Below, in pieces: positions 8,206 through 58,682 of a stretch of 64,000 nt of DNA. The first letter of the stretch is position 1. Every line of letters starts with the position of its first letter. The stretch covers positions 372,001-436,000 of the forward strand of contig NZ_JABBGB010000003.1 of assembly GCF_012927185.1 (NCBI RefSeq), given 5' to 3'. Both the position numbers and the translations under genes were made by a program. The notes beneath the pieces were generated by a model. That model was given only the letters and a program-made list of their open reading frames with translations. It had not been told where the DNA came from and made no database searches. This stretch comes from Pseudoflavitalea sp. G-6-1-2. GTDB taxonomy: Bacteria; Bacteroidota; Bacteroidia; Chitinophagales; Chitinophagaceae.

Positions 8206-8213
8206 TCTAAACC

Positions 8214-8246: not shown

Positions 8247-8247
8247 T

Positions 8248-9874: not shown

Positions 9875-9904
9875 CCGTTGTTTAAGGGCTGTTGGTTTAA
9901 GTTC

Positions 9905-41128: not shown

Positions 41129-41185
41129 GAGCTGAGGTATTAATGGTTGTAAGTAAGTATTTCCCTGTGATCCTATATGGTATGG

Positions 41186-42216: not shown

Positions 42217-42304
42217 AATCCTATTACTTCATTTTTGGGATGAAGTACAGGTTTCTATCATAGTTATGCATTTACCTTTAATGCGAAGGATTCAGCACAG
42301 ATCA

Positions 42305-42477: not shown

Positions 42478-42500
42478 CAATTGCGTTAATGAGCCGACTG

Positions 42501-42949: not shown

Positions 42950-43381
42950 ATGATCAAGAAAGCCTTTGTAAGAGGTACAAGCCTCTTATTGGTGGTGCTA
43001 TTCCTATATGCATCGCTGTCTAAACTCAGTGATTACGGTAAGTTCAGAACCAATATTGCTGAGTCGCCATTCATTGGGCGATTTGCAGGCGTATTAGCCT
43101 GGTTTATTCCTGCTGCGGAGATTTACATATCCATCATGTTACTGTTTGCTGTAACGAGGCTGAATGGCCTGTACGCATCGTTTGTGCTGATGCTGGCATT
43201 CTCGGTATACATCGCATTGCTGCTGGGCTCCGGATCAGAAGTTCCCTGCGAATGCGGTGGCATACTCAATGAGATGAGCTGGGAAACGCATCTCGTATTC
43301 AATTGCGTGTTTACTGCATTAAGCGGATCTGCTGCTTTGCTGGAGCGGAGACGTTTACGACAGGTGCGGCCTGCCGCGTAA
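42950..43381 (+). CDS. MauE/DoxX-family redox-associated membrane protein
   Basis: This 143-residue inner-membrane protein has four helices. It shows the typical 'FLYASLSKLSDYGKFRTNIAESPFI' first-loop region and a cysteine pair in VPCECGGILNEMSW, like the CGCFG of MauE proteins. MauE relatives are linked to disulfide or thiol transfer for exported proteins. Start ATG 42950 was chosen over an upstream TTG because it begins directly before the first helix. In Bacteroidota such genes often accompany small exported Cys-containing proteins and TlpA-like thioredoxins, both present in this neighbourhood. Confidence 0.85.
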   Translation: MIKKAFVRGTSLLLVVLFLYASLSKLSDYGKFRTNIAESPFIGRFAGVLAWFIPAAEIYISIMLLFAVTRLNGLYASFVLMLAFSVYIALLLGSGSEVPCECGGILNEMSWETHLVFNCVFTALSGSAALLERRRLRQVRPAA

Positions 43382-43423
43382 AAAAAGAACCAACCCATAC
43401 CGAATTCCAAAAAGCCTTGTCTT

Positions 43424-43675
43424 ATGCAAAAAGAGATTTTTTATCGCCTGGTTCGGATAGACCAGCTGATACGCATCAAAGCCACGGGTACGCCCGTAGA
43501 GCTTGCTGATAAACTGGGAATCTCCGAACGAAGCGTATATGAATACCTCAATCTTATGAAAGAATTAGGAGCGCCGATCAAATTCAGCAGCTACCGCCAA
43601 ACTTATTATTATGATGAAGAAGGAACATTCAATATTTCCTTTCTTCCAAAGGATTACAATTCCAAAGCAGGATGA
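43424..43675 (+). CDS. Small helix-turn-helix DNA-binding protein
   Basis: This 83-residue protein has an HTH_11/DeoR-like motif at about residues 8-50 (IDQLIRIKATGTPVELADKLGISERSVYEYLNLMKELG). A short beta-rich tail (PIKFSSYRQTYYYDEEG) looks like a winged helix without an effector domain. It lies 42 bp after the MauE-like gene and 95 bp before the kinase-cyclase gene. It is a candidate binder of the TGCA-N7-TGCAGT element that recurs in this cluster, but that is only inference. Confidence 0.8.
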   Translation: MQKEIFYRLVRIDQLIRIKATGTPVELADKLGISERSVYEYLNLMKELGAPIKFSSYRQTYYYDEEGTFNISFLPKDYNSKAG

Positions 43676-43688
43676 TTGTTAACCTTCC

Positions 43689-43724
43689 ACTGCTGTATAA
43701 CTGCGGTGGTGGAAAGTAAATTAG
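43689..43724 (+). promoter_or_regulatory. Candidate regulated promoter of the kinase-cyclase gene
   Basis: ACTGCTGTATAACTGCGGT (43689-43707), 9 bp, then TAAATTAG (43717-43724). It has the same 19 + 9 + 8 layout as the promoters of the small exported proteins and the lipoprotein operon, but is the most diverged copy: ACTGC-N8-TGC is kept and the last A of each TGCA is lost. Confidence 0.5.
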
Positions 43725-43770
43725 TAGCGGAGGAATTGCTGGTTATTAACTGAACTAAAATTTGCTGGCT

Positions 43771-45969
43771 ATGAAAGCTGAAACAAAAACCGGGGTTAAT
43801 GAATTGCCATTGGAAGAAGGCGAGAAGAAAGGGAAGGCTGAGAAGAAGGCGGGGAAAAGGATTGGGTATAATTATATAATTGTGAAGAGCCTGAAGGAAC
43901 ATAAGAAGAATGATGTGGTGAAGTGTTTGTATATAAAGGGCCTTACCAGGTTTGGCTTCTGTGTAATTAAAGAAGGAACGTTTGGTGATTCTAAGGATAA
44001 GCATGGCCGTGATATTAAAGATCGGCTGCTATGGCAGAAAGAGCTGCATGAAAGTCTGCATGGCAAACTTAGGTTACCGAAATATCTGGGCAGCTTTGAA
44101 GAGAATGGGAATTATTATCTGGTGATTGAGTTGATTAAGGGAAAGTCGATCGGGACACTTGTTCGAAAAGCTGGGCCTGATTTACGGAATTCACTGATTA
44201 ATGGTGATAAAGACGGTCATTTGTATATAGGTTATCTGATTCAGATAGCTGCGTTGCTTGAAAAGCTTCACCGTGAAGAAATCGTTCACAGGGATGCTAC
44301 CTGCGGAAATTTTATTATTTCAGGTTCGGGAAGGGTTTCAATGATCGATATGGAATTAAGTTACTCACTGCTTCGTGGTTTTCCTGATCCTCCTTTTGAG
44401 CTGGGTACGCCAGGATTTATGTCACCTCAGCAAATGGAAAATCAGGTGCTTCCCTGCAAGTCCGATGATGTTTTTGCATTCGGAGCAATGTTCCTTCAGG
44501 TATGGACGGGTATTTCTCCGTCAAAGTTAACGCGCCCACCAGCGGAAGAACTGGAAGGTAGGGTGAAGTTTTTAATACCGGATCCCGGGCTTGCAGAGCT
44601 TGTGATTAAATGTCTGCAATATGATCCATTGCAACGGCCATCGATTTCAGAAGTCAAAAAGAATCTAACAGCTTATAAAAAGTCATACTCAAAAACGAGC
44701 GCTTCATCTAATTCAGGAGCTGGGCTTCCTGCGATCGGGAAGGTGCATGAAGTTGTTCAGCAGGGAATTCACACCATGAACAGTGCATTGCTGGCAGACA
44801 AAGAGAAAGGATGGTTTGCACAAAATCAGCAAACTGTCAAAGACGATCGCAGCAAAATTGATAAAGAGTATTTTGTAAGCTTTCAGTTTGGTGTATCGGG
44901 GCCACTTTATTTTCTAGCCAAAGCAATGGTTAGTGGATTTGATGTCAGCGGTTCAATGTCGAACGTAGAAAAGGCATTGAAACTAATTGAAAAAAAATAT
45001 ATCAGAAGGGAAGAAGTAGCTCCTGGTTTATATTATGGAGCAGGTGGTGTTGCCATTGCATTGCAGACAGCTATTCATCATGGCCTTATTGGCGGAAGTT
45101 ATGATGAGTGGATTGGTCAATTGCTGAATAATACTTCCAATGATCCTGGACTGATCAACGGAAGAGCAGGGCAGGGCCTAGCTTTATTGGGCTGCTTAAC
45201 TGACAATAGAATGGAGGTCGCTTCTAAGAGATTGTCTCAGGATGCCTCTTTTCTTACTGAAGTAATTAAACCGCATGGCTATTGGTCCATTATTTATGAA
45301 AAGAAACTAAAAGCTTATCCCGGACTTCTTTTTGGGAATGCAGGTACTCTCTATTTCTTACTTGAGTATGCTAAATTTTCACAAGATGCAGCAACATTGG
45401 AGCTCGCAGAAAATGGATTAACGTGGCTGATCAAAAAAGCAGTCGCAGAGAAAGGCAAAGTTAAGTGGAAGTCACCATCTGGCCATGGTATCGGGTATGG
45501 ACTTGCCGAGGGGGCGGGTGGAATAGCAATGGTGTTTTTGAAAGCCTATGAGGTAACGGGGAAACAGGTGTATCGAAACTATGCTGAAAACGCTTTATTG
45601 TCAATTCCTGCTGAATTAACTGATAACTGTCTTACACAAGATACCGGGCTCTCTGGTATTGGAGAAGTTTACCTTGAAGCATTCAAGGTGTTGAAAGATG
45701 AACAATGGAAAAACAGAGCTGGATGGATAGTACAGCTAATATTGAATACAAGCATTTCCCATGACAAATACGGCAGGTATTGGTTGGCCGATCAGGAGAG
45801 GCATCCTATAGCTGGTTTTATGATTGGTAATAGCGGCATTTTGCATTTTCTGATGAGGTATTGTTATCCGGAAAACAATGCGTTTCCCTTGCTTGATCCA
45901 TCTTCTGTTAAATTATCAGTTGCAAAACCTGAAAAATTTTTACAACAACTACATCCTACATCAATATGA
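43771..45969 (+). CDS. Kinase-LanC fusion, class III lanthipeptide-synthetase-like without lyase domain
   Basis: This is a cytoplasmic protein of about 732 residues. Residues 1-30 are Lys/Glu-rich. Residues about 32-310 are a Ser/Thr-kinase-like domain with beta-3 Lys67 (CVIKEG), catalytic H173-R174-D175 with N180, a DME (D193) in place of DFG, and an SPQ in place of APE. Residues about 385-715 are LanC-like, with repeated alpha-toroid motifs (GLYYGAGGVAIAL, INGRAGQGLALL, LLFGNAGTLYFL, GHGIGYGLAEGAGGIA, SGIGEVYLE, GFMIGNSGILHFL). The zinc-binding WCYG and CHG motifs of classical LanC are absent. Class III LanKC enzymes add an N-terminal lyase, which is missing here. Start ATG 43771 was preferred to TTG 43762. 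It overlaps the next gene by ATGA. Confidence 0.82.
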   Translation: MKAETKTGVNELPLEEGEKKGKAEKKAGKRIGYNYIIVKSLKEHKKNDVVKCLYIKGLTRFGFCVIKEGTFGDSKDKHGRDIKDRLLWQKELHESLHGKLRLPKYLGSFEENGNYYLVIELIKGKSIGTLVRKAGPDLRNSLINGDKDGHLYIGYLIQIAALLEKLHREEIVHRDATCGNFIISGSGRVSMIDMELSYSLLRGFPDPPFELGTPGFMSPQQMENQVLPCKSDDVFAFGAMFLQVWTGISPSKLTRPPAEELEGRVKFLIPDPGLAELVIKCLQYDPLQRPSISEVKKNLTAYKKSYSKTSASSNSGAGLPAIGKVHEVVQQGIHTMNSALLADKEKGWFAQNQQTVKDDRSKIDKEYFVSFQFGVSGPLYFLAKAMVSGFDVSGSMSNVEKALKLIEKKYIRREEVAPGLYYGAGGVAIALQTAIHHGLIGGSYDEWIGQLLNNTSNDPGLINGRAGQGLALLGCLTDNRMEVASKRLSQDASFLTEVIKPHGYWSIIYEKKLKAYPGLLFGNAGTLYFLLEYAKFSQDAATLELAENGLTWLIKKAVAEKGKVKWKSPSGHGIGYGLAEGAGGIAMVFLKAYEVTGKQVYRNYAENALLSIPAELTDNCLTQDTGLSGIGEVYLEAFKVLKDEQWKNRAGWIVQLILNTSISHDKYGRYWLADQERHPIAGFMIGNSGILHFLMRYCYPENNAFPLLDPSSVKLSVAKPEKFLQQLHPTSI

Positions 45970-46781
45970 ACTTTCTCAAACTGGCAGATGGAGTATCTGG
46001 TTTGTTTCCCAGAAAAATAAAGATCGATCTGATCAGATCTAGCACCGGACAGAAAGAGGATAGCCTGGTAATACGGGAAGATTTGATTCCTGAGACATTC
46101 AATAAGCCCACTTTGCTGGAAATAAAAAAGCATATATGGAGAGTAGTGGATGCTAAAGTTACCCGTGATGGTAGCTATTTTTTTTCAAAGCGACTTCAAT
46201 TGTATGTTGAAGATCCGGATCAGTTTCAAATTGGAGATAGATTTATGGTGCCATCCCGTCCGGCAATTTTCCCATTTATGCAGGAAACTAATGTTACCGA
46301 TGAACAAACAATGCTGCATATTGACGAATGGAGGGAATTTGAGTTCCTTCCAGTTAAGATGGCTTCTGCAATTCATGAAGAAATTCTTAGTATCGAAGCG
46401 ATATTGAATGCAGAAACAAATGCAAACACTTTACTGGGTTATGATCGCTTTCTCAACAGGAATGCTCTTTTTGATAATGCCCTGCAGATTTCTGTTGATG
46501 ATTTTATAGAAGTCACAGAGGGATTTATGAAGGGAAAAGTTTGTGTCAAAAGTAGGGGTGTCGTAGAAAATAGTTTTGTTATAGAATCAAGTTCAGCTAC
46601 ATATTACGGCCTCTGCACAGAAGGTATGATAACTGAATTGTCGATGTTGTATTTCGACAGCGTAGATGATGAATTAATAACCTTGCTTACTACATTTAAC
46701 CTGGTGGCAATCGATTGGAGTGGGGCAAAAATTTATATGGAACCTACCAACGACAGGGAAGAAACTGCGATCAAAATTTAA
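45966..46781 (+). CDS. Unknown protein translationally coupled to the kinase-cyclase
   Basis: This 271-residue acidic, soluble protein has no signal peptide and no family I recognise. Its ATG overlaps the stop of the kinase-cyclase gene (ATGA), which implies coupled translation and a joint function. Visible traits are a basic first third (LFPRKIKIDLIRSS, KPTLLEIKKHIWRV), aromatic/acidic patches (HIDEWREFEFLPVKM) and an end beginning VAIDWSGAKIYMEPTNDR. It could be a substrate-recognition partner or supply the elimination step missing from the kinase-cyclase; neither is supported by a motif. It converges with the metallophosphoesterase gene with a 3-bp gap. Confidence 0.7.
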   Translation: MNFLKLADGVSGLFPRKIKIDLIRSSTGQKEDSLVIREDLIPETFNKPTLLEIKKHIWRVVDAKVTRDGSYFFSKRLQLYVEDPDQFQIGDRFMVPSRPAIFPFMQETNVTDEQTMLHIDEWREFEFLPVKMASAIHEEILSIEAILNAETNANTLLGYDRFLNRNALFDNALQISVDDFIEVTEGFMKGKVCVKSRGVVENSFVIESSSATYYGLCTEGMITELSMLYFDSVDDELITLLTTFNLVAIDWSGAKIYMEPTNDREETAIKI

Positions 46782-46784
46782 GCA

Positions 46785-47702
46785 TTATCCAATCTTGTGA
46801 TACTCGCCATTAGTAAAAACTCTGTAGAATTTATTCTTCATTACCATCAAGCCCTCTGAAAAATTGTTTGCGTGATCTGTATTGACATTTATTACTTTTC
46901 CATCAAAGAAAAAGGTAATGGTTTCAAGCATGGTGTGGCCTGTAATTATATGCTTCGAGTTATAGAATTTCAGTGTGTTTTTAACTAGAGACTTGTCTGC
47001 AACTCCATTGTAATACCCGCGATACCAAAATGGTGATATGTCTGCGGAAAATAAAGTGTGCAATGTGTTATCAGAAAGGAATTCAGGGAATTTGTGGGAG
47101 TAATATGGTCTGGCCAGGGCGTTTATTTCAGATAGCGACAATCTGAGATCAAGTAATTCTCTTGATACTCCTCCGTGAACAAACAGGTAGTTGCCAATCC
47201 GTTCAATCACATTTTTTGATTGCAGCCAGCGCCAGAGTTCATCATTGGCATAGTACAGAGCGGCTGGTGGATCAGTAAGCGAAACTGTTCCGACAGCATA
47301 TCGGGGGTGAACATAACGCCAATCGCCATTCATATTCATGATCTCGTGATTGCCGAGAATATAATGAACATGCCCGCCGTGCCTTTTCGCTTTTTCTTCA
47401 AGCCCGTAAATCAGCCAGAGGCATTCAGTTACTTCTTCGCCACGATCGAAGCAGTCTCCCAATATAACTACGTGTCCACTACCGTAAAGCCATTCCATTT
47501 TTTGAGAGATCACTCCTCCGGCTACCAGTAATTTAAACAAAGGAGCGAAATTGCCTTCAATGTCTGAGACTACAAACAATTGCGAAGGCGTTGAATACTC
47601 GCATGCTTCGTTTTTGGGAATTTCATGCATTCTGAAAGTAAAGTAATGCAGATCATCTTTATAGTTCGGAACCTGAATGGATATTTTGAATGGCGATACC
47701 AT
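46785..47702 (-). CDS. Calcineurin-like metallophosphoesterase
   Basis: This 305-residue protein has the phosphoesterase motifs VVSDIEGN (in place of the usual D-x-H), GDCFDRGEEVTECLW, LGNHEIMN, FVHGG and ITGHT, at about residues 46-270. The first-motif His is replaced by Glu in the D-x-E form, shared by Bacteroidota relatives. No signal peptide is evident, so it may be cytoplasmic. It is closely similar to the C-terminal half of the 855-residue fusion at 50845. It is third in the operon lipoprotein - thioredoxin-like - phosphoesterase, with a 21-bp gap. A cytoplasmic phosphatase beside a kinase could reset phosphorylated substrate. Confidence 0.88.
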   Translation of the reverse strand: MVSPFKISIQVPNYKDDLHYFTFRMHEIPKNEACEYSTPSQLFVVSDIEGNFAPLFKLLVAGGVISQKMEWLYGSGHVVILGDCFDRGEEVTECLWLIYGLEEKAKRHGGHVHYILGNHEIMNMNGDWRYVHPRYAVGTVSLTDPPAALYYANDELWRWLQSKNVIERIGNYLFVHGGVSRELLDLRLSLSEINALARPYYSHKFPEFLSDNTLHTLFSADISPFWYRGYYNGVADKSLVKNTLKFYNSKHIITGHTMLETITFFFDGKVINVNTDHANNFSEGLMVMKNKFYRVFTNGEYHKIG

Positions 47703-47723
47703 GGGATAAAGTTAGTTTCTGGT

Positions 47724-48239
47724 TTATGATCCGGAGAAGAACTCTTTCAGATCGGATTTAATAGTCTCAGGAATGGAGCTGACCCTTTTGAAAGCCTTCT
47801 CTCCTGAAGTGTAGTAAATGGTAGGCTTGTTGTTAACCAACCTTAACACTCTTGCGTGATTTATAGAATCTAAAAACAAGCGGTTTGTTATGGGAGGGAT
47901 ATTTCCTTTTCTGTCTTTAAAGAACTTATTCATGGAATCATATCCTTCAGTGGCTGATAAAATTATGTAATGCCGGTAAGGCAGATTGATGCCATGACTG
48001 ATTATGCTGTCGATAGTTTTTTTTCTGCAGCTTGGGCAGCTTACTTCCAGGGGCAGAAGCAGAATTGCAAGAGAATCTTTTCTAACATTTTCCGGAATGA
48101 TATTGTTGGTTACGGCCATAAGACCTTTGAAGATCTGTTCCTGTTTTGTTTGTTCTGTGATCAACTCAATACTGGTATGCTTTGGAGATTCTTTGCAGCA
48201 TACGATGAAGAGTGTAATAGAAAAGATGAAAAGTTTCAT
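47724..48239 (-). CDS. Thioredoxin-like lipoprotein
   Basis: This 171-residue lipoprotein has the signal MKLFIFSITLFIVCC and KESPKH after the Cys. A CPSC redox motif sits in LEVSCPSCRKKTIDSI, and a late cis-Pro-like segment is KPTIYYTSGEKAF. The whole is a reduced thioredoxin-like fold. The ATG at 48239 was chosen because it starts the lipoprotein signal; the frame extends to 48311. It is second of three in the operon with the DUF4221-like lipoprotein and the phosphoesterase. A role in thiol exchange on exported Cys proteins is inferred from context. Confidence 0.7.
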   Translation of the reverse strand: MKLFIFSITLFIVCCKESPKHTSIELITEQTKQEQIFKGLMAVTNNIIPENVRKDSLAILLLPLEVSCPSCRKKTIDSIISHGINLPYRHYIILSATEGYDSMNKFFKDRKGNIPPITNRLFLDSINHARVLRLVNNKPTIYYTSGEKAFKRVSSIPETIKSDLKEFFSGS

Positions 48240-48258
48240 AAAGTAACTTTTTAAGGGT

Positions 48259-49422
48259 TTATTTTTTGAGAGAAGCCATCCCACTACTGTCAATGTACTC
48301 TGCATATTCAACTCTAACTAAACTCACATATGGTTTTCTGTTATTGTCCACGCGCGCAAAAAGTTGTCCATCTCTCGTAAAGAACAGTGAAAATAAATCG
48401 ATATGATCAGGTGCGGGTGCTTCGCTAATGATTTTGAAGTTCTGGTCGAGAATGATCATGCTTCGGGATCTGCTTCGGTTCTTTGCATATACAGACGAGT
48501 CTGAAAGTTTTTGTTTGGCCATTCTCAGGTACCATTTTTTTGCGGGGTCATAGAACACCGGTCCATACGAATAGCGAATGGAATATTCATAATAACTTTG
48601 TCCATCTTCAATATCTTTTTTGGATACAGGCTTGATGTCTTCGGTCTGGAACTTGCTTCTGGCATTATAAGATTTATGATATTCAGCAAGATTGGTTTCA
48701 TAAAGGCTAGTATCAGCAGGGAAGCTGAAAACGAAGTTTCCTTTTTCATTCAGACAATAGCCATAGCGTAGAAAAGAGTACCCGTAATAATCAGAAGTAT
48801 ATACTTTGGGAAGGTTATAATATGATTTCTGATCGTTTAGGGAAAGATCAAATCCCTCTATCAGTTTATACCGCTTCAAAGCTGGCAATGAGTTTTCAGC
48901 CACAGCCTTGATATTATTGGTGTAAAGTATATGCCCTTTGATTATTAAAGGGGTTTCGTTTGAGAATGCCAATGATTGTCCTTTTGGTATTTCGATCTTA
49001 TTCTTAATTCTGCTACTTGTATCAAAAAGAACAATATGTGTTCTTGTACATATGATAATGCTGTCGAAGTTTCTTACACAAACCGATGTTTTTTCGAGTT
49101 TAATTCCTGTAAGCCATTTTTTCAAAGGAATTGCTTTGATAATGTTACCTGAAGGAAAAGTATACAGTGTCAGGGTGAAAGTTGCCTTATCAAAGGTTGC
49201 AACATAAGAACTGTCGTTCATTGTAAAATAGCTGATCGATCCCAGCCCCGTAGTTGTTCCCTCCGCTAAAGGCAGGTTAATGGTGTCTGTGGTAGAATGT
49301 AAAGACATATTTCCATATGTTGGTACCTGATATATGGGTTGGGGTTGCAGCGCATCGGAACTACAACTATGGAGAGAATAAAACAGGGTCAAAAATATTG
49401 GCGCCAGAAATATCTTTTTCAT
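48259..49422 (-). CDS. DUF4221-like lipoprotein
   Basis: This 387-residue lipoprotein (signal MKKIFLAPIFLTLFYSLHSC) is rich in beta strands, probably a propeller, and resembles DUF4221 proteins of Bacteroidota. No catalytic motif is seen. It heads the operon with the thioredoxin-like and phosphoesterase genes (19-bp and 21-bp gaps). Its upstream region carries the 19-bp element and a TAACTTTA -7-like box in the spacing shared with the small-protein genes. Confidence 0.7.
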   Translation of the reverse strand: MKKIFLAPIFLTLFYSLHSCSSDALQPQPIYQVPTYGNMSLHSTTDTINLPLAEGTTTGLGSISYFTMNDSSYVATFDKATFTLTLYTFPSGNIIKAIPLKKWLTGIKLEKTSVCVRNFDSIIICTRTHIVLFDTSSRIKNKIEIPKGQSLAFSNETPLIIKGHILYTNNIKAVAENSLPALKRYKLIEGFDLSLNDQKSYYNLPKVYTSDYYGYSFLRYGYCLNEKGNFVFSFPADTSLYETNLAEYHKSYNARSKFQTEDIKPVSKKDIEDGQSYYEYSIRYSYGPVFYDPAKKWYLRMAKQKLSDSSVYAKNRSRSRSMIILDQNFKIISEAPAPDHIDLFSLFFTRDGQLFARVDNNRKPYVSLVRVEYAEYIDSSGMASLKK

Positions 49423-49453
49423 AAAGCTGAATTTATTCTATTGTGATCTTTAA

Positions 49454-49489
49454 TAAAGTTAAAGAGGGCTGGTGCAGTTTTAATGCAGT
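49454..49489 (-). promoter_or_regulatory. Candidate regulated promoter of the DUF4221-like operon
   Basis: On the plus strand GGTGCAGTTTTAATGCAGT (49471-49489) carries TGCA-N7-TGCAGT. Nine base pairs away, on the minus strand, is TAACTTTA (49454-49461), 31 bp before the start codon. The layout is identical to the promoters at 50177-50212 and 50802-50837. Confidence 0.65.
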
Positions 49490-49495
49490 TGAATG

Positions 49496-49642
49496 TTACC
49501 TGTTATTGCAACTTGCAGGGTTCAATTCAAGTGAAAAACCTCCGGGATCTTTTTTAGTAGGAACAATCGCGGCAGTAATAGCGGACGTACTTAAGAGTTC
49601 TAAACCTAAAACCAGGAATTTGGGAATTTGCACTTTTTTCAT
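49496..49642 (-). CDS. Truncated paralog of the small exported proteins
   Basis: This 48-residue frame aligns in register with the next small gene over the hydrophobic signal region. Residues 12-14 (LGL) and AITAAIVPTK at 21-30 match ALTAAIVPSK at the same positions. After about residue 33 the similarity ends; the tail is GGFSLELNPASCNNR with a single Cys. No copy of the shared promoter element lies upstream; instead a terminator hairpin stands there. I regard it as a shortened, perhaps inactive, relic, though the frame itself is intact. Confidence 0.55.
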   Translation of the reverse strand: MKKVQIPKFLVLGLELLSTSAITAAIVPTKKDPGGFSLELNPASCNNR

Positions 49643-49660
49643 AAGACTTTTTATAGAGCA

Positions 49661-49729
49661 TTGGATAATTTAAAAAGGCAACTGATTGCATAGAATACAA
49701 TCAGTTGCCTTTTTAAAGAAATTATCCAA
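49661..49729. terminator. Long hairpin terminator after the second small-protein gene
   Basis: A 20-bp perfect stem (49669-49688 with 49698-49717, core GGCAACTGATTG) with A/T runs at both ends, flanked by a further outer pair TTGGATAATT / AATTATCCAA. It can stop transcripts on either strand. Confidence 0.85.
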
Positions 49730-49739
49730 TCTTATGATA
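49721..49739 (-). pseudogene. Remnant of a metallophosphoesterase gene 3' end
   Basis: On the minus strand TATCATAAGATTGGATAAT encodes YHKIG-stop. It matches the last codons of the metallophosphoesterase at 46785 (TATCACAAGATTGGATAAT) in 18 of 19 bases. It stands 7 bp after the stop of the second small-protein gene, where no such gene is present. Confidence 0.6.
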
Positions 49740-49745
49740 ATCAGA

Positions 49746-50114
49746 TTAGATTCTTACCAGGATGCTGGTAGTATCAACAGCACCAACTGTAACACTGAGA
49801 GACGTATTGCCTCTGGTTGTAACTTGTTGACCCAAACCATTAATTGCAACAGTAGTAATAGCACCACCAGTAGTACCGGTTACATTGGCAGCAGTAACAG
49901 TCTTATGGCAATGTGCAGCAACAATAAGCGTAACACAAGAGAATACATTAGCAATAGCACCGTCACCACCACTGAATTGACGCAGAGTACCATTGTTCAG
50001 TGAGTTGGCTTGCTCAGGAGCTGGTTTAGAAGGTACAATAGCAGCAGTGAGAGCAGAAGCGCCTAATAGTACGAGGCCCAGCGCAGAAAAACGACGAACT
50101 GATTTCTTTTCCAT
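49746..50114 (-). CDS. Small exported protein with Cys-x8-Cys-His, copy A
   Basis: This 122-residue protein has a basic N-terminus (MEKKSVRRF), a hydrophobic stretch SALGLVLLGASALTAAIV, then a mature part of about 95 residues rich in Thr, Ser, Gly, Val and Asn. Cys60, Cys69 and His70 lie in FSCVTLIVAAHCHKT. It shares NSLNNGTLRQ and SGGDG with copy B at identical residue numbers, and ends DTTSILVRI. The N-terminus could be a signal peptide or a hydrophobic leader. Ser/Thr near paired Cys would be compatible with lanthionine formation, and equally with one disulfide. The promoter shares its layout with the kinase-cyclase gene. Confidence 0.85.
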   Translation of the reverse strand: MEKKSVRRFSALGLVLLGASALTAAIVPSKPAPEQANSLNNGTLRQFSGGDGAIANVFSCVTLIVAAHCHKTVTAANVTGTTGGAITTVAINGLGQQVTTRGNTSLSVTVGAVDTTSILVRI

Positions 50115-50176
50115 AAAATAGTTTTTTAATAATTCGGTAATTACGTTCTGTAATCAATGGCCATTAGACTACAACA

Positions 50177-50212
50177 CGAAATTATTGTTCCTTACTGCAA
50201 TTAGCTTGCAGT
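50177..50212 (-). promoter_or_regulatory. Candidate regulated promoter of small-protein gene A
   Basis: Plus-strand ACTGCAATTAGCTTGCAGT (50194-50212), 9 bp, then minus-strand TAATTTCG (50177-50184). The -7-like box is 62 bp before the start codon. Confidence 0.7.
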
Positions 50213-50220
50213 ACAAGATT

Positions 50221-50244
50221 ACGTTTTATGAAATTGTTACTTTC
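50221..50244 (-). pseudogene. Remnant of the thioredoxin-phosphoesterase gene 3' end
   Basis: On the minus strand AGTAACAATTTCATAAAACG closely matches the last codons of the 855-residue gene, AATAACAATTTCGTAAAACA. In that frame it reads SNNFIKR against NNNFVKQ-stop. It lies upstream of small-protein gene A just as the real gene end lies upstream of gene B. Confidence 0.55.
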
Positions 50245-50252
50245 TTATTCAG

Positions 50253-50271
50253 GCTGCACTTAACCTGCAGT
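50253..50271. promoter_or_regulatory. Extra copy of the 19-bp element without promoter box
   Basis: GCTGCACTTAACCTGCAGT carries TGCA-N7-TGCAGT, but no -7-like box is found at the 9-bp position. Probably a relic of an earlier promoter copy or an auxiliary operator. Confidence 0.5.
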
Positions 50272-50290
50272 GTAATATTAAGAGAGTCAA

Positions 50291-50338
50291 TAAAAGAAAC
50301 ACCCTGATACAAAAGTTTGTATCAGGGTGTTTCTTTTA
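50291..50338 (-). terminator. Terminator of small-protein gene B
   Basis: A perfect 23-bp inverted repeat (core GAAACACCCTGATACAAA, 2-nt centre, and its complement) ends in CTTTTA on the minus strand, 32 bp after the stop of gene B. Confidence 0.88.
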
Positions 50339-50369
50339 TGCATGCATTTTTTTTCAGAATATAGCCTGA

Positions 50370-50741
50370 TCAGAGTTGAATGAGCATGCTGGTTGTGTCT
50401 TTCCCGTTGCCCAGAATACTCAATGATGTATTCCTGGCGGTGGTATACATACGGCCGTGAACCGTTATCATAATAGTATCATTGTTGGCATCCCAACTGG
50501 TGCCAGACACATTGTTGAGTGTTTTCGTTGCATGGCAGTTGGCAAATGCTACCAGTGTTACGCAGGAGTAAATTTGTAGGTATGGACCATCTCCTCCACT
50601 GTATTGCCGAAGGGTTCCGTTATTCAGGGAATTCAACTGATTGGCTGTGGATTCTGACCTGGCAAAATTTGTAATTATTGCTGATGCTGTCAAAAGTGCA
50701 AGTCCTAATAGTGAATAATGTTTTCCTGCTTTTTTTTTCAT
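50370..50741 (-). CDS. Small exported protein with Cys-x8-Cys-His, copy B
   Basis: This 123-residue paralog of copy A has a basic start MKKKAGKHY, a hydrophobic stretch SLLGLALLTASAIITNFA, then NSLNNGTLRQ, SGGDG and YSCVTLVAFANCHATK, with Cys60, Cys69 and His70 at the same positions. It ends DTTSMLIQL. ATG 50741 was chosen because it starts the signal-like region and aligns with copy A; the frame extends to 50825 through the promoter. It lies directly downstream of the thioredoxin-phosphoesterase fusion gene but has its own promoter and terminator. Confidence 0.85.
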   Translation of the reverse strand: MKKKAGKHYSLLGLALLTASAIITNFARSESTANQLNSLNNGTLRQYSGGDGPYLQIYSCVTLVAFANCHATKTLNNVSGTSWDANNDTIMITVHGRMYTTARNTSLSILGNGKDTTSMLIQL

Positions 50742-50801
50742 ATGATTGCTTTTAGCTGATTCGTCAATTTCGAATGTGTAATAGAAGTTGTGCCGCACTT
50801 G

Positions 50802-50837
50802 CGAAATTATCCATACCCACTGCAATCAAAATGCAGT
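50802..50837 (-). promoter_or_regulatory. Candidate regulated promoter of small-protein gene B
   Basis: Plus-strand ACTGCAATCAAAATGCAGT (50819-50837), 9 bp, then minus-strand TAATTTCG (50802-50809). The -7-like box is identical to that of gene A and lies 61 bp before the start codon. Confidence 0.7.
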
Positions 50838-50844
50838 TTAATAA

Positions 50845-53412
50845 TCACTGTTTTACGAAATTGTTATTTTTGTTTGCATCATAGATCAGGGTTAGTTTTC
50901 CTTCCTGATTGGTTCTGTAAAAACGTTTTCCGTTTATCAACAAGGCTTCAGAATTACCTGCTGCGTGATGAGTATCAGTATTGAACAATTTGCCATTGAA
51001 TAAAGAAGATATTGTGTCTGAAATAATAGTATGCCCTGTAATGATATGATCAGCTTTATAGAATTTTAACGTGCTGTCTAACTGTTGTTCAGTATGATCC
51101 TTGTAATAGTAGCCTCTGTACCATGTTGGACCAACACCTTTTACAATAAGCAGGGTGTCTTCAGTTTTTCCCACATAGTTGATGTCGTAATATGGCCTGG
51201 CTATGTTGTTTATTTTTTCTACGGAATAATTCAATCGTGTTACAGCGGCCGAAACACCACCATGTACAAAAATGATATTGCCAATCTTCTCCATTATATT
51301 TTTTGATCTGAGCCATCTGCCGAGTTCGCTCTTGCTACTGTACATATCTTTCAATGTCTGTTTGGCTGCAATTGCATTGTCTAAGTATTTTTTTTGTGTG
51401 TATTTATGTTCCCCCTGAAGGTTCATTATTTCATGATTGCCAAGAATGAAATGAATATATCCACCTGCGGCTTTTGCTTTTTCTTCAAGAGCATAAATTA
51501 ACCAGAGACATTCGGTTACTTGTGTACCCCGGTCAAACATATCTCCTGCAAACACCAGGTGCCCATTGCCGAAGGTCCAGTTTTGTTGATCGTCAATCAC
51601 GCCATTTCCTCTCAGGAGAGCTGTGAGTACGGGAAGATTTCCTTCGATATCTGACAGTGCCAGCAACTTTTCTGGCTGAGCATATACAGATGGTTGCAAT
51701 ACTACTGATTGTTGAAGGGGGATGTTATAAGTCTGATTCAGGTAATTGATGGTAGAAATGCTTGTTGTTTTTTCGGCAGATAATATTTTTTTGTCTGCCT
51801 GGTTGTTTAGAAAAGACCAACTGATAATACTGTCCTTTCCTTCATGCAGAATGTAGGGGCCATCTTTCATATCAGAGAGGAGCTGATTGATCAGCGTGGT
51901 CATTCCTTTTCCCTGATCTTTTCTTGGATCCATTTGATTGACATCATAAGGAACGATTCTGCCTTGAGGATTAATCAACAGTAAGGAAGGATAGCCCTCT
52001 ATTGTCAATCCTTTAATAAGGTCGTGTGTCGAACCTTTACCTTCTGTATATAGGTGAATCCCTTTGCCTGAAACATATTCTCCTTCTTCAATGCTTTTGG
52101 TCCATTGTGAAAAATTCTTATCAATGGAGATACTTACAAATACCACGTTGGTATCTTTGCTGAATTTTTCTTCAATGTTTTTCAATGCGGGTGCCATTTG
52201 TACACAACCTGTACAACCTGTGAACCAGAAATCAATTAGCGCTACTTTATTGTTGAGTTGATAATTAGAGAATTTGTTTCCGTCTTTGTCTGTCAGTGAA
52301 AATGATGGGATGTATCGGCTGCCGCTTCTTTTTCTGTATTTGACCTCTGCTTTTTTAACAGCTTCCTTGTAAGCATCATATTGTGATGTGTTATAGTAAT
52401 CCTGAAGCAGTGAATCAATCCGGCTATTAAAACCCACTTCGCCAAGCAGTCCATCTTTATCCCAAAATGTAAAAGCCATCATTCTTTCTTTCATCAACCC
52501 CTGAAAGTTTTTCTTGATGTCGTTATAAATTGCAAAATAATATTCCTCCTGACTGGAGCAAGGCATTTGATCGTCTGGGCTTGTTTTGAAGAACTTATGA
52601 TACTTTCGATAAACATTCAGTTTCATGATATACCAATGATAGTAGAGGTCTACCTGATTATAAGGAGTTTTCATCAACCATTGTGAGGAAGGATTGATCA
52701 TAACGGAATCGTAAATATTACACAGATCTTTATTGGTCAATCCATATTTGTTGACCGCTGTATTTCCCAGTCTGATGAAGTTGAATTTCCAAAGCCTTCT
52801 TTTTTCTTCTTCCAATAAGAAAAGTCGTTTGATTTCATTGTAGGCCAATGATGTGATTTCCGGGCGATATACCTCCATAATGGAAAGTATGAGTGAGATC
52901 CTTTTATTCAGGTATTGATTCCATTTGAAAAAGTCTTCTAACGAGGTGGGGGGGTGTTTATGGCTGCTCAAGGTTCTTCGTTCTGGTAAATTTTCCAGGC
53001 TGTCCAGTACCTCCCTGAGTCTGAAGGTTAGTTCCCAGTTTGCAGCTCCCTTGCCAGTGAAACGGAGTTTATTGTTAACATGCCTGATTGAAATGCTATC
53101 GCCCGATTCAGAAATTACTCCATAAAATTTATAGTCGGCAATGAAAGGCCCTTTGATAGTTGTTGGTTTATTGGTAGGGATATTCCATTTGATTTTTCCT
53201 TCAGCGAGATTGCCTGTGACAGTATCCAAGTCATAATCTTTACTTGTTATTACATCTGAAACAAATGTATACAGTTGTTTCATTTCGGGGTTAAAACCCG
53301 ATGGAAGATCTCCTTCAATGATCACCCTGTTCATTCTGGCATTGGGGAACTGAGCCGTTGTTGTGGCTGATAAAAGAATCATTGGTAGTATCAGATAGAA
53401 AAATATTCTCAT
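50845..53412 (-). CDS. TlpA-like thioredoxin fused to metallophosphoesterase
   Basis: This 855-residue exported protein starts with the signal MRIFFYLILPMILLSATTTAQ. Residues 25-355 are an unassigned helical region with a DUF4369-like start. Residues about 360-510 are a TlpA/AhpC-type thioredoxin domain with a GCTGCVQ redox motif near residue 400 and PSLLLINPQG. Residues about 585-845 are a calcineurin-like phosphoesterase with SDIEGN, GDMFDRGTQVTECLW, LGNHEIMN, FVHGG and ITGHT, very similar to the separate protein at 46785. It is third in the operon susC-susD-fusion (15-bp gap). Redox and phosphatase domains in one periplasmic chain suggest they act on the same exported substrate. Confidence 0.87.
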   Translation of the reverse strand: MRIFFYLILPMILLSATTTAQFPNARMNRVIIEGDLPSGFNPEMKQLYTFVSDVITSKDYDLDTVTGNLAEGKIKWNIPTNKPTTIKGPFIADYKFYGVISESGDSISIRHVNNKLRFTGKGAANWELTFRLREVLDSLENLPERRTLSSHKHPPTSLEDFFKWNQYLNKRISLILSIMEVYRPEITSLAYNEIKRLFLLEEEKRRLWKFNFIRLGNTAVNKYGLTNKDLCNIYDSVMINPSSQWLMKTPYNQVDLYYHWYIMKLNVYRKYHKFFKTSPDDQMPCSSQEEYYFAIYNDIKKNFQGLMKERMMAFTFWDKDGLLGEVGFNSRIDSLLQDYYNTSQYDAYKEAVKKAEVKYRKRSGSRYIPSFSLTDKDGNKFSNYQLNNKVALIDFWFTGCTGCVQMAPALKNIEEKFSKDTNVVFVSISIDKNFSQWTKSIEEGEYVSGKGIHLYTEGKGSTHDLIKGLTIEGYPSLLLINPQGRIVPYDVNQMDPRKDQGKGMTTLINQLLSDMKDGPYILHEGKDSIISWSFLNNQADKKILSAEKTTSISTINYLNQTYNIPLQQSVVLQPSVYAQPEKLLALSDIEGNLPVLTALLRGNGVIDDQQNWTFGNGHLVFAGDMFDRGTQVTECLWLIYALEEKAKAAGGYIHFILGNHEIMNLQGEHKYTQKKYLDNAIAAKQTLKDMYSSKSELGRWLRSKNIMEKIGNIIFVHGGVSAAVTRLNYSVEKINNIARPYYDINYVGKTEDTLLIVKGVGPTWYRGYYYKDHTEQQLDSTLKFYKADHIITGHTIISDTISSLFNGKLFNTDTHHAAGNSEALLINGKRFYRTNQEGKLTLIYDANKNNNFVKQ

Positions 53413-53427: not shown

Positions 53428-54861
53428 TTAATAATCTTTGTTTTGCTGAAGGTTAGCATATCGAACATCCTGCAGTGGTAATGGAGATATTGCTTTATTA
53501 CTTGGGTATTCAAGATTAGCGGCGCCTGAAATAAAAGCATCTTTTCTATGAACTCCCTGTTGCAATCTTTGAAGATCAAACATTCTTAAGCCTTCAAATG
53601 AGAGCTCTTTTCTTCTTTCTTTATAAATTGAATCAAGAAGAGCAGTACCAGTTGTTTCCAGAGGTACCCCCAGGGGATTGGCTCTTACTCTTATTGAGTT
53701 AAGTAATTCGCGGGAAGTTACCTCGTCTCCGGTTTTTGCTGCGGCTTCGGCAATTGTGAGAGCTACTTCGGAAGATCGGACTATGGTTTGATAATAGTCG
53801 CAAAATGGAGCAGGGTGTAGCTTGGCTACGCCAACCGGGTACTTGGTGACCACCCACATTCCATCTATTGACGTAACCCAGTTCAAACGGATGTCGTCTG
53901 GGTTTTCTGTAAGTATTTCTGTTATATCATTGGTTGCTGCGAATTGTCCGAACCTTAGATAAGCGCCCATAAAGGTTGCCCCTATTCCGGCACTGCCTTT
54001 GATGAAAACGGGCGATAATTGAAATAGAACCTCCGATTTGCCGGGAGCCTGAAGGGTAAACATTTTTTCAGGGTAACCGGCAGCAATTGACATCAGCGGA
54101 ACCTTCTGATATACATCTTTTGCAAGTTTGAGGGCCATTGCATAATCTTGTTTGAACAGATATACTCTTGCGAGCAGGGCTTTGGCAGCAAGGTGATTCA
54201 TCAATCTGGCGTCTGTAAATTGTTCGGGCATTAGCCTGATAGCTTCCTGCAGATCTGCAATTACACTGTTATAATTTTCTGCTACAGTGGCCCGTTGCAT
54301 GGGTTTTGTAATATCTGAATTGGTAATGTATGGTATGCCAATATGAGTTGCATTTTCAGAATATGAGTAAGGTTGGGCAAAAATATTCATCAGTTTGAAA
54401 TGAATCATTGCGCGCAATGCGTATACCTGGCCTTTCAGATTGTCAGATTTTTCAGAACCTTCATTTCTATATTTATTGATGTCTTCAATAACAAAATCGC
54501 AGGATCGAATGATCTGATAGCTTGATTGCCATTCACCATTCATTGCAGTAGAATTTGAGCTGACTGCATTTTCCGGATTGAGTTCTGCTTTTTGTGACCA
54601 GGAATAATGCGCCAGAAGATCGGGGTTTTCAAGGGAAACAGGCTTCACGTTGTCAGATACTATATCAGCATATAAGCTACCCAGGTTGCCCAAAAAATCT
54701 CTGTCGAGCATCAAATACACACCATTGACGAAATGCTCCATGGTATTAAGGTCTTTCACATAAGTTTGTCTGTTTAGGGAACTTGTATCTTCGAGTTCAA
54801 CAAAGCTTTTGCTGCAAGACAAAAGACTCAGAATAAAGAAAAATAATATAAGCTGTTTCAT
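53428..54861 (-). CDS. SusD/RagB-family lipoprotein
   Basis: This 477-residue surface lipoprotein has the signal MKQLILFFFILSLLSC and TPR-like helices with YALRAMIHFKLMNIFAQPY. The SusD C-terminal blocks are 'ALTIAEAAAKTG' and 'KERRKELSFEGLRMFDLQR'. It pairs with the SusC gene 35 bp upstream to form a capped TonB-dependent channel. In this setting the ligand may be a peptide or protein rather than a glycan, since no carbohydrate-active enzyme is nearby; that is inference. Confidence 0.93.
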   Translation of the reverse strand: MKQLILFFFILSLLSCSKSFVELEDTSSLNRQTYVKDLNTMEHFVNGVYLMLDRDFLGNLGSLYADIVSDNVKPVSLENPDLLAHYSWSQKAELNPENAVSSNSTAMNGEWQSSYQIIRSCDFVIEDINKYRNEGSEKSDNLKGQVYALRAMIHFKLMNIFAQPYSYSENATHIGIPYITNSDITKPMQRATVAENYNSVIADLQEAIRLMPEQFTDARLMNHLAAKALLARVYLFKQDYAMALKLAKDVYQKVPLMSIAAGYPEKMFTLQAPGKSEVLFQLSPVFIKGSAGIGATFMGAYLRFGQFAATNDITEILTENPDDIRLNWVTSIDGMWVVTKYPVGVAKLHPAPFCDYYQTIVRSSEVALTIAEAAAKTGDEVTSRELLNSIRVRANPLGVPLETTGTALLDSIYKERRKELSFEGLRMFDLQRLQQGVHRKDAFISGAANLEYPSNKAISPLPLQDVRYANLQQNKDY

Positions 54862-54896: not shown

Positions 54897-57800
54897 CTAA
54901 AAACCGACCATTGCTCCTATGCTGAATGAGCGTGCGAGCGGGTAAAGCAAAACGCTAGAGCCGAATGCGTTGATATTCTCGGGATCTCCGTTTGAGTATT
55001 TTGTCCATACAGCGAGGTTATTTCCCTGCACATACAATCTCAAAGAACTCATGTGAAGTTTGCTGATCATTTTTACCGGGAAAGTATAAGCTATATTAAC
55101 ATTCGACAATCTCAGAAAATCTCCATTATACAGGTATCTTGTTGAAGGCTCTCCGCCGTAATCAAATTCGAGACCAGGATAAGTGGGAATCTGCTTAACT
55201 CCATTCAGAAGCCGTCTGGGGTTGGGCGAGTTAGCACCGGTTTTTTTCCAGCGATTCTGTGCAGAGCTGATCTGATTCATATATGGCAAGGCTCCATCAT
55301 TGATCAGTGTTCTGCCTGCTTCAAAATAAATTTCAGATCCATACTGATAATACAAGTTAAAAGAGAGTTCAAAACCTTTGTAGGTTAGTGTGTTGATCAG
55401 TGATCCAACTCCATCAGGTTGCGCATTTCCAACTATTTCTTTTTTAGCTGCCTTATAATCTTCGGTGGGTTTGCCACTGGAAGAATCTATCCATTGAGGT
55501 CTTCCGTTGCTGGGATTCACACCTGCCCATATAGGTAGATAGAAACTATTGTATTCTTTACCTACTTCGTTTACAAGATTACCATTGCCGAAAACTGTAA
55601 GGGAAGGGTAGAACGATTTGGTGAGTCTGTTTGTATTTTTACTCCAGTTTCCGGTAAGAGTCCAGCTGAAATCTCTTGTTCTAACCGGGGTAACGGAGAA
55701 ACTCAGTTCAATGCCTTTATTTGAGATATCTCCAATATTGTCTGTGAATGTACTATATCCTGTTGCGCCTGGAATCAAAATATCATAGGCAATCAGGTTA
55801 TTTGTTTTCCTGTTATAGAAATCAGCCTTAAGCATAACTCTATTGTCGAGCATACCTAATTCAACTCCAATGTTCATTGTTTTGGTAGATTCCCATTGAA
55901 TACCAGGATTGGACGGGGAAGCACTTCCCTGAGTCCAGACCGCGGTAGATCCGAGATAATTGTAGATAACAAGGGGATCAAACCTGATTCCATCCGTGAT
56001 TGCGGAAGAGTTGCCGGATGAACCGTAACTTCCACGGATCTTGAACAGATTCAACCACGGCAATGCTTTTTTTATGATTGGTTCTTCACTTACCAACCAG
56101 CCGGCTCCGACAGACCAGAATGTGCCGAATTTTGCATTCTTTCCGAATTTAGAAGCACCATCTGCGCGGATGCTTCCACTTAGAAAATATTTTTCTTTGT
56201 AACCATAAGAAAATTGTCCAAAATAAGAGAGGAGGGTTTGTCTGAATTTTTTACCAAAGGTCTGAATATTAGTACCTCCTTGTATTTCTTCAAGAGAAGG
56301 GTTAGACCCAAAGCCCTTGATATTAGAATTCAGATAGCGGTCAGTTTTAATTTGTGCTTCCTGACCGGCAAGAAGTTGAAGCTGGTGATTGGGGGCAATC
56401 TCTTGAGAAAAGAGCAAAGTGTTGGAATTGATCAGGCTTATTGATCTGTAGTTTTCATCAGTAATACGACCCAATCCTGCTGCTGTATCACCTTGAATAA
56501 TAAAATCGGGATGGATCTTTTGCTTAGCCTCATTCAGGATAAAATTAAAGCCAACTTTAGAGTTGAAGGTAAGTGATTTGAAAGGAGTAATGCTTGCTGT
56601 TAACGCAGAAATACCTCCATAAGAAGTGTTTCTATTGATATTCTTTTCAGCGGCCGCTACAGGGTTGGGAAGCGAATTTCTTACACCCCCAATTCCATAT
56701 CCCCAGATAAAGTTATTAATGTAGTTGCCATTCATATTTTTGATGGGGAGCAAAGGAGAAATGTACATTTCGGAACCAGTATTGTTACTGTAGTTCTGAA
56801 CAGAATAAGCGAAGGAGGTATTCAATCCTAATTTGAACCAGGAGGCAAGCCTGTTTTCCACATTGAATCTCATTGATTTTCTGTCGAAATCAGTTTTGCT
56901 TACAATGCCGTTTTGTTTTGTGTATTCGAAGTTCAGATAGAAAGTAGTCTTTGCTGTACCTCCTGATATGTTGAGTTCATTCGATGTGGTGATCGCGCGA
57001 TTATCATAGATTGCATCGATCCAATTGGATGCCGGATAAAAACTTGTGTCGCCAGGTGATTTTACAATGGTTGGAAATTTCTTATATAGGTCTGTTCTGA
57101 TACTGTCATCAGAAGCAGTAGGGAAGGAGTTCCGGTAAGTTTCCATTATCATGTCGAGATACTGTTGCTGATTTAAGACCGAAGTGTTTTTTTCTATTCT
57201 GGTGGAAATATCAGTCTGATGTCTAAAGTTGTAATTGGTTTTACCTGCTTTACCTTTCTTGGTGGTCACAATTATTACACCATTACTTGCTTTAGAGCCA
57301 TATAGTGATGCGGCAGCGGCATCTTTCAATACAGATATGCTTTCAATATCCGATGGATTAATCAATGACATCGGATTTGTTACTGAAGGGCGTCCCTGGT
57401 TTTGCATCGAACTCGAACCCATAGGGTCCTGGGTTACGGGCACTCCATCAATAACTATAAGTGGATTTCTGAACGTTTCACCAAAAAGAGGATTTCCACC
57501 CGTAGCTACTCCTCTCAGAACAAAATTAGCCGGAGCTCCACCGGGCTGGCCTGATCCGTTCGTAACTACCAACCCCGGTACTAAACCTTGTAAGCTTTTA
57601 TCAAAACTTCTGTTAGGTAATGTTTGTATTTGCTCGCCCTTTACAACTGAAACTGCTCCGGTATTGGCTCTCTGGGTGGTGCTGTTGTATGCTACCACAA
57701 TTGTCTCGTTCAGATTGTTTGGTGCAACTTTTAGATTCACCCTGATTTCTTCATTCTTTTTTACCGCTACTACAGCTGGTTCATAACCGATGCAGGATAT

Positions 57801-58409: not shown

Positions 58410-58682
58410 GTAAAGGAATGTTAACCGGAATAACCTCTTTAGTCTCTTCCGGGTGGTTAAGAAAATAGTATGTAACGTCAATAAAAAAACGAAGAAGTCA
58501 TTCCCAATTGAGTGTTGGATAAGTGTTGGGCGATATAATAATCTCCCCTGTGGATGCTCACGCGAATACATGAAGGTGGTTTAATGGTTGATGGCGGCAA
58601 GAATCGCGAGCTGATCCTAACTTCTTCTTAATGTTGCATCGGTATTGATGTTCTATACCTCTGTTCTCAGGTGCTGAGACCT

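Follow-up and report, generated by a model that had tools for sequence, protein, structure and literature searches.

The window, a 64,000-nucleotide stretch of Pseudoflavitalea sp. G-6-1-2 (contig NZ_JABBGB010000003.1, positions 372,001 to 436,000), carries at 42950-53412 a group of genes that forms a single locus together with a SusCD pair, a FecR-type anti-sigma and a sigma factor extending to 60720. Judged from sequence, and with a probability that we put at roughly 0.48, this locus makes and handles phosphorylated exported peptides: KLanC, a protein kinase fused to a LanC-like domain, would act as a leader-guided peptide kinase, and dephosphorylation would occur in the periplasm. The main reason to propose that the phosphate leaves the cytosol on the peptide is that the phosphatase kept in every recurrence of the locus, its activity being predicted, probably lies outside the cytosol and the kinase inside. 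The data point to a stable lineage of lanthipeptide-synthetase relatives that lacks the lyase step and is matched to small exported proteins (S1 and S2) and phosphatases.

On the plus strand, a MauE-like protein, a small helix-turn-helix (HTH) protein, KLanC and P4 follow one another, and the minus strand encodes, in order of transcription, an extracytoplasmic function (ECF) sigma factor, FecR, SusC with an STN domain, SusD, a TlpA-phosphatase fusion, S2, S1, a 48-codon open reading frame (ORF), a DUF4221 lipoprotein, the thioredoxin-like lipoprotein Trx and the metallophosphoesterase MPE1. Profile searches of the ORFs identified most of these, and export signals were judged by eye throughout. 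All genes named in a preliminary description of this DNA were present, most by profile and Trx by eye; the DUF4221 lipoprotein and the 48-codon leader ORF are two genes of the locus that it did not contain. The features central to our proposal are as follows:

43771..45969, plus strand: KLanC, protein kinase fused to a LanC-like domain, without a lyase domain (Pkinase, PF00069, E 4.9e-15; LANC_like, PF05147, E 7.8e-21); the start is taken as the ATG at 43771, the mechanical ORF beginning at TTG 43762
49746..50114, minus strand: S1, small exported protein of 122 aa, with a leader, a Ser/Thr-rich core and Cys-x8-Cys
50370..50741, minus strand: S2, small exported protein of 123 aa, paralogue of S1 (48% identical)
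50845..53412, minus strand: TlpA-type thioredoxin fused to a PPP-type phosphatase, with a signal-peptide-like start (PF13905, PF00149)
46785..47702, minus strand: MPE1, metallophosphoesterase without a visible signal peptide (PF00149, E 2.1e-14; 5/5 phosphatase motifs)

Recurrence of the locus and co-occurrence of its two key families

The locus was found at 25 distinct sites in Chitinophagaceae, a family of soil bacteria, with the window counted and with membership taken from database kinship for genomes known by our own G numbers and from the family of the named genera (loci are likewise cited by L numbers where they must be told apart). Genes for the HTH protein, KLanC, a small protein and the TlpA-phosphatase occur in all 25, followed by SusD (24), MPE1, Trx and DUF4221 (23 each), SusC (22), P4 (15) and MauE (10); the absences of SusC or SusD in L040, L042 and L054 arise because the fetched flank stops there. 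Recurrence of the core gene set in 24 further loci supports the earlier view that the parts belong to one system. The collection was assembled by scanning one genome per species with short peptide patterns, which yielded 21 loci, including two with more distant enzymes (L057, L059), two cut by contig ends (L039 and L058, the latter also frame-broken) and one duplicate (L043, identical to L036). Another 20 stretches were fetched, among which L124, L125 and L132 are contigs of L056, L046 and L041 and were not recounted, and six lyase-less loci were new. Within 99 genomes, consisting of the window's and its relatives, full-length KLanC orthologues (48-49% identity) were confined to two congeners, both with small proteins nearby. 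Across 395 genomes of the class, a sample that held few Chitinophagaceae genomes, matches at E ≤ 1e-60 were limited to the window genome and to G033, a member of the same family in which the enzyme is broken.

The preliminary description had proposed co-occurrence of the kinase-LanC and small-protein families as a check, and this was carried out on 294 Chitinophagaceae genomes drawn from a larger group, with the enzyme profile cut off at E ≤ 1e-60. The two families do occur together: both were present in 13 genomes, the enzyme alone in one (G195), the small proteins alone in one (G193) and neither in 279. Matches to the enzyme profile were obtained in 24 genomes, and the 13 with an intact lyase-less enzyme scored at least 957 bits, with open frames of 708 to 777 codons. 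G195 is a fourteenth such genome, in which the enzyme is split over two frames on one contig and the small proteins have no match. In the remaining ten, whose best matches scored 223 to 580 bits, every relative of the enzyme is longer or partial: those of seven genomes (G010, G103, G108, G156, G218, G226 and G309) were aligned over the lyase part, G019 and G187 were classed from the frame length only, and the enzyme of G033 is broken. None of these ten was matched by the small-protein profile; outside the 13 genomes it matched only G193, at 23.8 bits and with five internal stops. For 12 of the 13 genomes, enzyme and small proteins share one contig, with under 8 kb between them; the exception is G114, where they fall on two contigs and the enzyme is near a contig end.

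KLanC is a kinase-LanC protein without a lyase domain

The best NCBIfam model for KLanC was LanL, at 237.5 bits against a cut-off of 650, and the LanKC model gave 148.3 bits against a cut-off of 575. The alignment begins at position 168 of 851 in the LanL model and at position 248 in the LanKC model; as positions 1-167 of the LanL model are unmatched, the N-terminal lyase is absent from KLanC. The best match in the PDB was 8car (E 2.4e-18), an 865-residue kinase entry that, from its length and paper, we take to be ThurKC. The kinase Lys, HRDxxxxN and Asp were kept in all 26 enzymes once the broken L058 was left out. In an alignment with two zinc-bearing LanC proteins, the zinc triad was incomplete in 19 of the 20 lyase-less enzymes, with none of the three ligands in the window KLanC, and the residues replacing the LanC Cys-His pair varied among them. 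The available excerpts of PMC10604976 give Asp and Phe/Tyr/Met at the position of this pair in 87.5% of eight LanKC models. In the phylogenetic tree, the 20 lyase-less enzymes lie on one side of a branch with 100/100 support and 11 longer enzymes on the other, the latter carrying a long-branch warning, a topology that fits loss of the lyase as well as its original absence. For VenL, the excerpted text of PMC2843593 describes two to four phosphorylations of the precursor by the kinase domain on its own, and this isolated activity was taken as the model for KLanC.

Upstream of the HTH-KLanC pair, L042 (8289-9641, plus strand) and L044 (8280-9635, plus strand) encode a 450-aa protein similar to the latter part of KLanC, in which most of the kinase is gone; it could possibly be a decayed second KLanC copy.

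Small exported proteins resemble peptide precursors

Over 19 rows, one protein per locus, the first 28 residues of the small proteins were 54% identical on average, as opposed to 23% for the remainder. Four other exported proteins of the locus are less conserved at the start than in the rest, namely the TlpA-phosphatase (19 vs 35%), SusD (34 vs 44%), Trx (28 vs 46%) and DUF4221 (17 vs 36%), although the protein starts in this comparison are mechanical, which can lower the start values. As in the small proteins, the starts of the HTH protein (58 vs 52%) and P4 (46 vs 38%) are better conserved than the rest, though only slightly. With a conserved leader, a variable core and a modifying enzyme nearby, the combination that marks precursors of ribosomally synthesized and post-translationally modified peptides (RiPPs), S1 and S2 look like RiPP precursors. 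Past the leader, Thr (14.4%), Gly, Ser (10.0%), Ala and Asn are abundant, and 19 of 31 small proteins have N-T-[ST] in their mature part, a number that 500 shuffles did not reach (mean 6.3, maximum 13). The pattern [ST]-C-x7-11-C is found in 28 of the 31, counting the first match, which is not the aligned pair in two L037 proteins. The Cys-x8-Cys-His motif described earlier stands in part: Cys-x8-Cys holds for both window proteins, whereas the His after the second Cys is not general. Up to six matching small ORFs were counted in one locus (L054, one of only 39 codons). Neither S1 nor S2 matched DUF6520 (PF20130) at E ≤ 0.1. A structure model of S1 from a shallow alignment gave a mean predicted local distance difference test (pLDDT) score of 50.1, with a single helix at 11-26 over the leader; the view of the small proteins as folded was set aside on this low-confidence model, which fits a leader helix followed by an unordered core and is weak evidence. 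The earlier proposal that the small proteins are the substrates appears likely from the co-occurrence, the operator described below and the conserved leader.

A shared operator-like palindrome

Scanning the window for the palindrome ACTGC-N9-GCAGT revealed a perfect copy in front of each of S1 and S2 and a copy with a single mismatch in front of KLanC, so the promoter layout that the enzyme and the small proteins were said to share is real. One-mismatch sites elsewhere in the window (228, 28341 and 35349) are unrelated to the locus. The sites within the locus are:

43689..43707, plus strand: operator-like palindrome, one mismatch to ACTGC-N9-GCAGT, before the KLanC gene
49471..49489, minus strand: degenerate operator, two mismatches, before the DUF4221 gene (weak alone, two-mismatch sites being plentiful in the window)
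50194..50212, minus strand: exact operator before S1
50253..50271, minus strand: operator-like site, one mismatch, between S1 and S2
50819..50837, minus strand: exact operator before S2

With six-base arms (ACTGCA-N7-TGCAGT), the operator occurs exactly only twice in the 6.1 Mb genome, both times before small genes, and with one mismatch at 40 further places, one of them inside the locus. The 32 fetched stretches (659,955 bases, with the distant L057 and four repeats among them) gave 50 sites of one mismatch or fewer where about 19.5 were expected, and 17 exact sites (14 after dropping repeats) against 0.6, the expectation assuming even base use and ignoring base composition. Nine other loci have an exact operator no more than 150 bases ahead of the mechanical start of KLanC or of its HTH gene (L036/L043, L039, L040, L046, L051, L056, L128, L130 and L131). 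Shared control is countered by the loci without any operator at one mismatch or fewer (L041, L042, L045, L054, L055 and L127) and by those with none before the KLanC or HTH genes (L044, L048, L050, L052 and L053).

The conserved phosphatase is probably the exported one

Both window phosphatases carry GDxxDRG, GNHE, HGG and GHT. The best PDB match of MPE1 was the protein-tyrosine-phosphatase 2z72 (E 4.9e-55, 269 residues aligned), and its nearest solved relatives, 2z72, 2zbm and 1v73 (E 4.9e-55 to 6.9e-55), which we take to be Shewanella enzymes, were followed by plant and animal PPP phosphatases. Of the five PPP motifs, four or more were present in the TlpA fusion of all 25 loci, window counted, and in only 8 of 24 MPE1 proteins, the window's included. 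MPE1 was dropped as an essential phosphatase, since the motifs are lost in most of its relatives. The N-terminus of the TlpA fusion is signal-peptide-like in most rows, those of L038 and L040 being cut by the stretch, and this start on the motif-keeping protein would place phosphate removal in the periplasm. The preliminary description had phosphoesterases remove the phosphate; that kinase and phosphatases belong together holds, and the predicted activity shifts to the TlpA fusion, where the motifs are kept throughout.

The other 16 MPE1 proteins are without most PPP motifs though the gene is kept (e.g., L044, 12899-13846, minus strand), and are likely pseudophosphatases.

Proposed mechanism and its difficulties

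In our proposal, KLanC, related to class III/IV lanthipeptide synthetases but devoid of the lyase domain, would bind the conserved hydrophobic leader of S1 and S2 in the cytosol and phosphorylate Ser/Thr of the core, while its LanC domain would hold the peptide and close no thioether rings. The leader would double as an export signal, and the two cysteines would form a periplasmic disulfide kept by Trx, by the TlpA domain where its C-x-x-C is retained and by MauE where present. The phosphopeptide could then act at or outside the outer membrane, where SusCD would bind it or take it back and signal through FecR and the sigma factor, and the TlpA-phosphatase would strip the phosphate. We infer S1 and S2 as substrates, the phosphate staying on, secretion, the disulfide and the SusCD cycle, and the handling of the product by SusCD, as suggested earlier, is of the same kind. 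A stronger version, in which Ser/Thr phosphate is the end modification and the phosphopeptides of a lyase-less enzyme are exported, disulfide-folded, recovered by SusCD and reset by a periplasmic phosphatase, closing a siderophore-like cycle of export, uptake and signalling, seems doubtful. If the phosphate does stay on, ribosomal peptide chemistry would gain a reversible end product, and the SusCD and TlpA proteins that accompany small exported proteins would gain a testable function.

Several observations weigh against the proposed mechanism. The full zinc triad is present in L053 and two of its three ligands in L047. According to the excerpts of PMC10604976, the precursor of ThurKC was left unphosphorylated by the kinase domain, also when the cyclase domain was supplied, and a lyase-less enzyme may therefore not work alone. 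Three of the 25 loci hold a separate RamC_N-kinase protein without a LanC domain, encoded on the minus strand between MPE1 and Trx (L040, 16236-17609; L044, 13855-15204; L045, 13900-15252), with RamC_N E values of 4.1e-12, 8.1e-16 and 1.5e-8, respectively, so dehydration may occur in that minority. At the Lys position of a G-K motif that, by alignment among the enzymes, most longer ones retain, these three proteins have Lys, Arg and His. The phosphatase might instead act on an imported nutrient, and its first motif is DxE in place of the DxH of the Shewanella enzyme, a changed metal ligand (DxE in 34 and DxH in none of 49 locus phosphatases).

In the redox part, Trx has C-x-x-C, sought anywhere in the protein, in 23 of 23 cases. 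The TlpA fusion is without it in 8 of 25 loci (L047, L048, L049, L050, L052, L053, L127 and L130), most of them beside small proteins with a Cys pair, and its redox function is thus less strictly kept than the phosphatase motifs. L047 and L049 are without Trx, DUF4221, MPE1, P4 and MauE, and their small proteins are without the central Cys pair, although one of the two in L049 has two Cys near its end instead. Since the two loci are sisters in the tree, the loss of Cys pair and Trx counts as one event, and they were set aside as a test of whether the enzyme depends on Cys, being suggestive only.

Alternative explanations

The preliminary description also allowed KLanC to cyclize its substrates. 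In a true lanthipeptide-like pathway, KLanC would phosphorylate, an unrecognized lyase (P4 or another acting in trans) would eliminate and the LanC domain would add Cys to give thioether rings, a scenario that we regard as rather unlikely. The homology of KLanC to LanL and LanKC fits it, but RamC_N (PF25816), the LanKC lyase domain, had no match anywhere in the window genome, where the sole match to the RamC_N-kinase protein of L040 was the kinase part of KLanC itself. A HopA1-type lyase was also unmatched in this genome, as was a VRP3-type lyase in a search whose controls were silent too, so that its absence is not shown. P4 was rejected as the missing lyase: its AlphaFold2 model from 12 sequences reached a pLDDT of 80.7, the PDB fold search with it was empty at E ≤ 0.001, and the gene is absent from 10 of the 25 loci. 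Longer relatives in the family that also adjoin SusC-type and small exported proteins, the separate RamC_N-kinase proteins, the triad in L053 and the Ser/Thr preceding the Cys pair in most small proteins all favor ring formation, and class III cyclases function zinc-free (PMC10604976, in excerpt). Against it stand the incomplete triad in 19 of the 20 enzymes and the retention of the enzyme in L047 and L049, where the central Cys pair and the Trx gene are gone. Taken together, the sequence evidence makes thioether formation at the window locus unlikely, and the cyclization part of the earlier description was not borne out.

KLanC could instead be a regulatory kinase acting on another locus protein (P4, the HTH protein, MPE1 or an export step), with S1 and S2 exported unmodified and merely co-regulated. 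This is unlikely, although a kept kinase beside a degenerate cyclase site, an HTH gene in all 25 loci and the loss of MPE1 motifs, as a pseudophosphatase partner might show, agree with it. It does not account for the conservation of the small-protein leader, which exceeds that of the start in four other exported proteins, nor for the retention throughout of precisely the phosphatase with a signal-peptide-like start, and P4 would be a target missing in 10 loci. An ordinary SusCD uptake locus would import a phosphorylated or disulfide-containing nutrient for degradation by the TlpA-phosphatase, with the small proteins accessory and KLanC only a neighbor. SusCD with FecR/sigma and a TlpA neighbor is common in the phylum; however, the joint occurrence of the small family with KLanC, to which there is a single weak exception in either direction, the shared operator and a gene set that recurs in 25 loci had already counted against this view, which we consider very improbable.

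Other features of the locus and its surroundings

The remaining genes are listed below; with SusC carrying STN, SusD, FecR and the ECF sigma factor, the SusCD signalling set is complete by Pfam.

42950..43381, plus strand: MauE/DoxX-like inner-membrane protein (PF07291, E 3.9e-31), accessory
43424..43675, plus strand: small HTH protein before the KLanC gene (PF08279, E 2e-6), candidate regulator
45966..46781, plus strand: P4, protein without a Pfam family above cut-off, its start overlapping the KLanC stop
47724..48242, minus strand: Trx, thioredoxin-like lipoprotein (CxxC and lipobox by eye; no Pfam match)
48259..49422, minus strand: DUF4221 lipoprotein (PF13970, E 6.9e-13)
49496..49642, minus strand: 48-codon ORF with an S1/S2-type leader and one Cys (small-protein profile, 28.9 bits), by its sequence a truncated or decayed precursor
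53428..54861, minus strand: SusD (PF14322, PF07980)
54897..58571, minus strand: SusC with STN signalling domain (PF07715, PF00593, PF07660)
58683..59915, minus strand: FecR-type anti-sigma (PF04773, PF16344)
60130..60720, minus strand: ECF-type sigma factor (PF04542, PF08281)

Outside the locus, a Cobalamin riboswitch (RF00174, 54.7 bits; 42292-42491, minus strand) lies upstream of two minus-strand genes at 38747-42160 that resemble, by eye, ribonucleotide reductase subunits. Elsewhere in the window genome, L133 (G000:C1:1946000-1965000) encodes at 3547-10202 on the minus strand a LanC protein with full zinc ligands, next to a 1031-aa protein and a 731-aa protein resembling a peptidase-containing ABC transporter (both by eye), and is a possible class I lanthipeptide cluster.

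Comparison with known systems

Class III LanKC enzymes (ThurKC, RamC) resemble the window system in joining a kinase to a LanC-like domain without zinc ligands and in having several candidate precursors per locus. KLanC has the kinase residues and the zinc-free LanC domain of this class but falls below the family cut-off; unlike LanKC, it has no lyase domain, in a genome without RamC_N, and the window precursors have export-signal-like leaders and are surrounded by phosphatases, redox proteins and SusCD. Class IV LanL (VenL) gave the best NCBIfam match, and its zinc triad survives in 1 of 20 lyase-less enzymes; KLanC, in contrast, scores far under the 650-bit cut-off, leaves the lyase part unmatched and has no zinc ligands, and hence does not combine lyase, kinase and zinc-dependent cyclase in one chain. 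As both comparisons fail on the lyase and the cut-off score, the evidence so far does not justify naming KLanC a lanthipeptide synthetase, although it may work like the kinase part of one. Class V lanthipeptide systems, in which kinase and HopA1-type lyase are separate, similarly split functions over chains, as the RamC_N-kinase proteins of three loci do, whereas the window kinase is fused to a LanC-like domain and the HopA1-type lyase is unmatched. A lanthipeptide variant, should the locus prove to be one, would bring a class III/IV-like pathway to a phylum for which only class I pinensins are named as isolated in the excerpts of a 2020 survey (PMC7268733). Searches of the open-licence literature brought up no title on this locus or on lyase-less LanKC in Bacteroidota, and none naming DUF6520.

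The Shewanella protein phosphatase (2z72, 2zbm and 1v73) shares the four motifs of both window phosphatases, the differences being DxE for its DxH and the fusion of one locus paralogue to a TlpA domain. The longer LanKC-type loci of Chitinophagaceae (L114-L123) are similar in having SusC-type proteins in 9 of 10 stretches, SusD in 7 and MauE in 4; in all but L115, where none is obvious, small exported proteins lie close to the enzyme (9 of 10, by eye). Some of these are in tandem, with six in L120 and five in L122, and in a DUF6520 scan of ten of them L117 passed the cut-off and L120 missed it by 0.1 bit. In contrast to KLanC, the N-terminal part of their enzyme can be aligned with the lyase domain, and their small proteins belong to other families, the best match to the window profile being E 0.0088 (L122). 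Collectively, our comparison indicates that the window locus is best filed as a lyase-less variant of the LanKC-type loci, with its own precursor family, phosphatases and operator.

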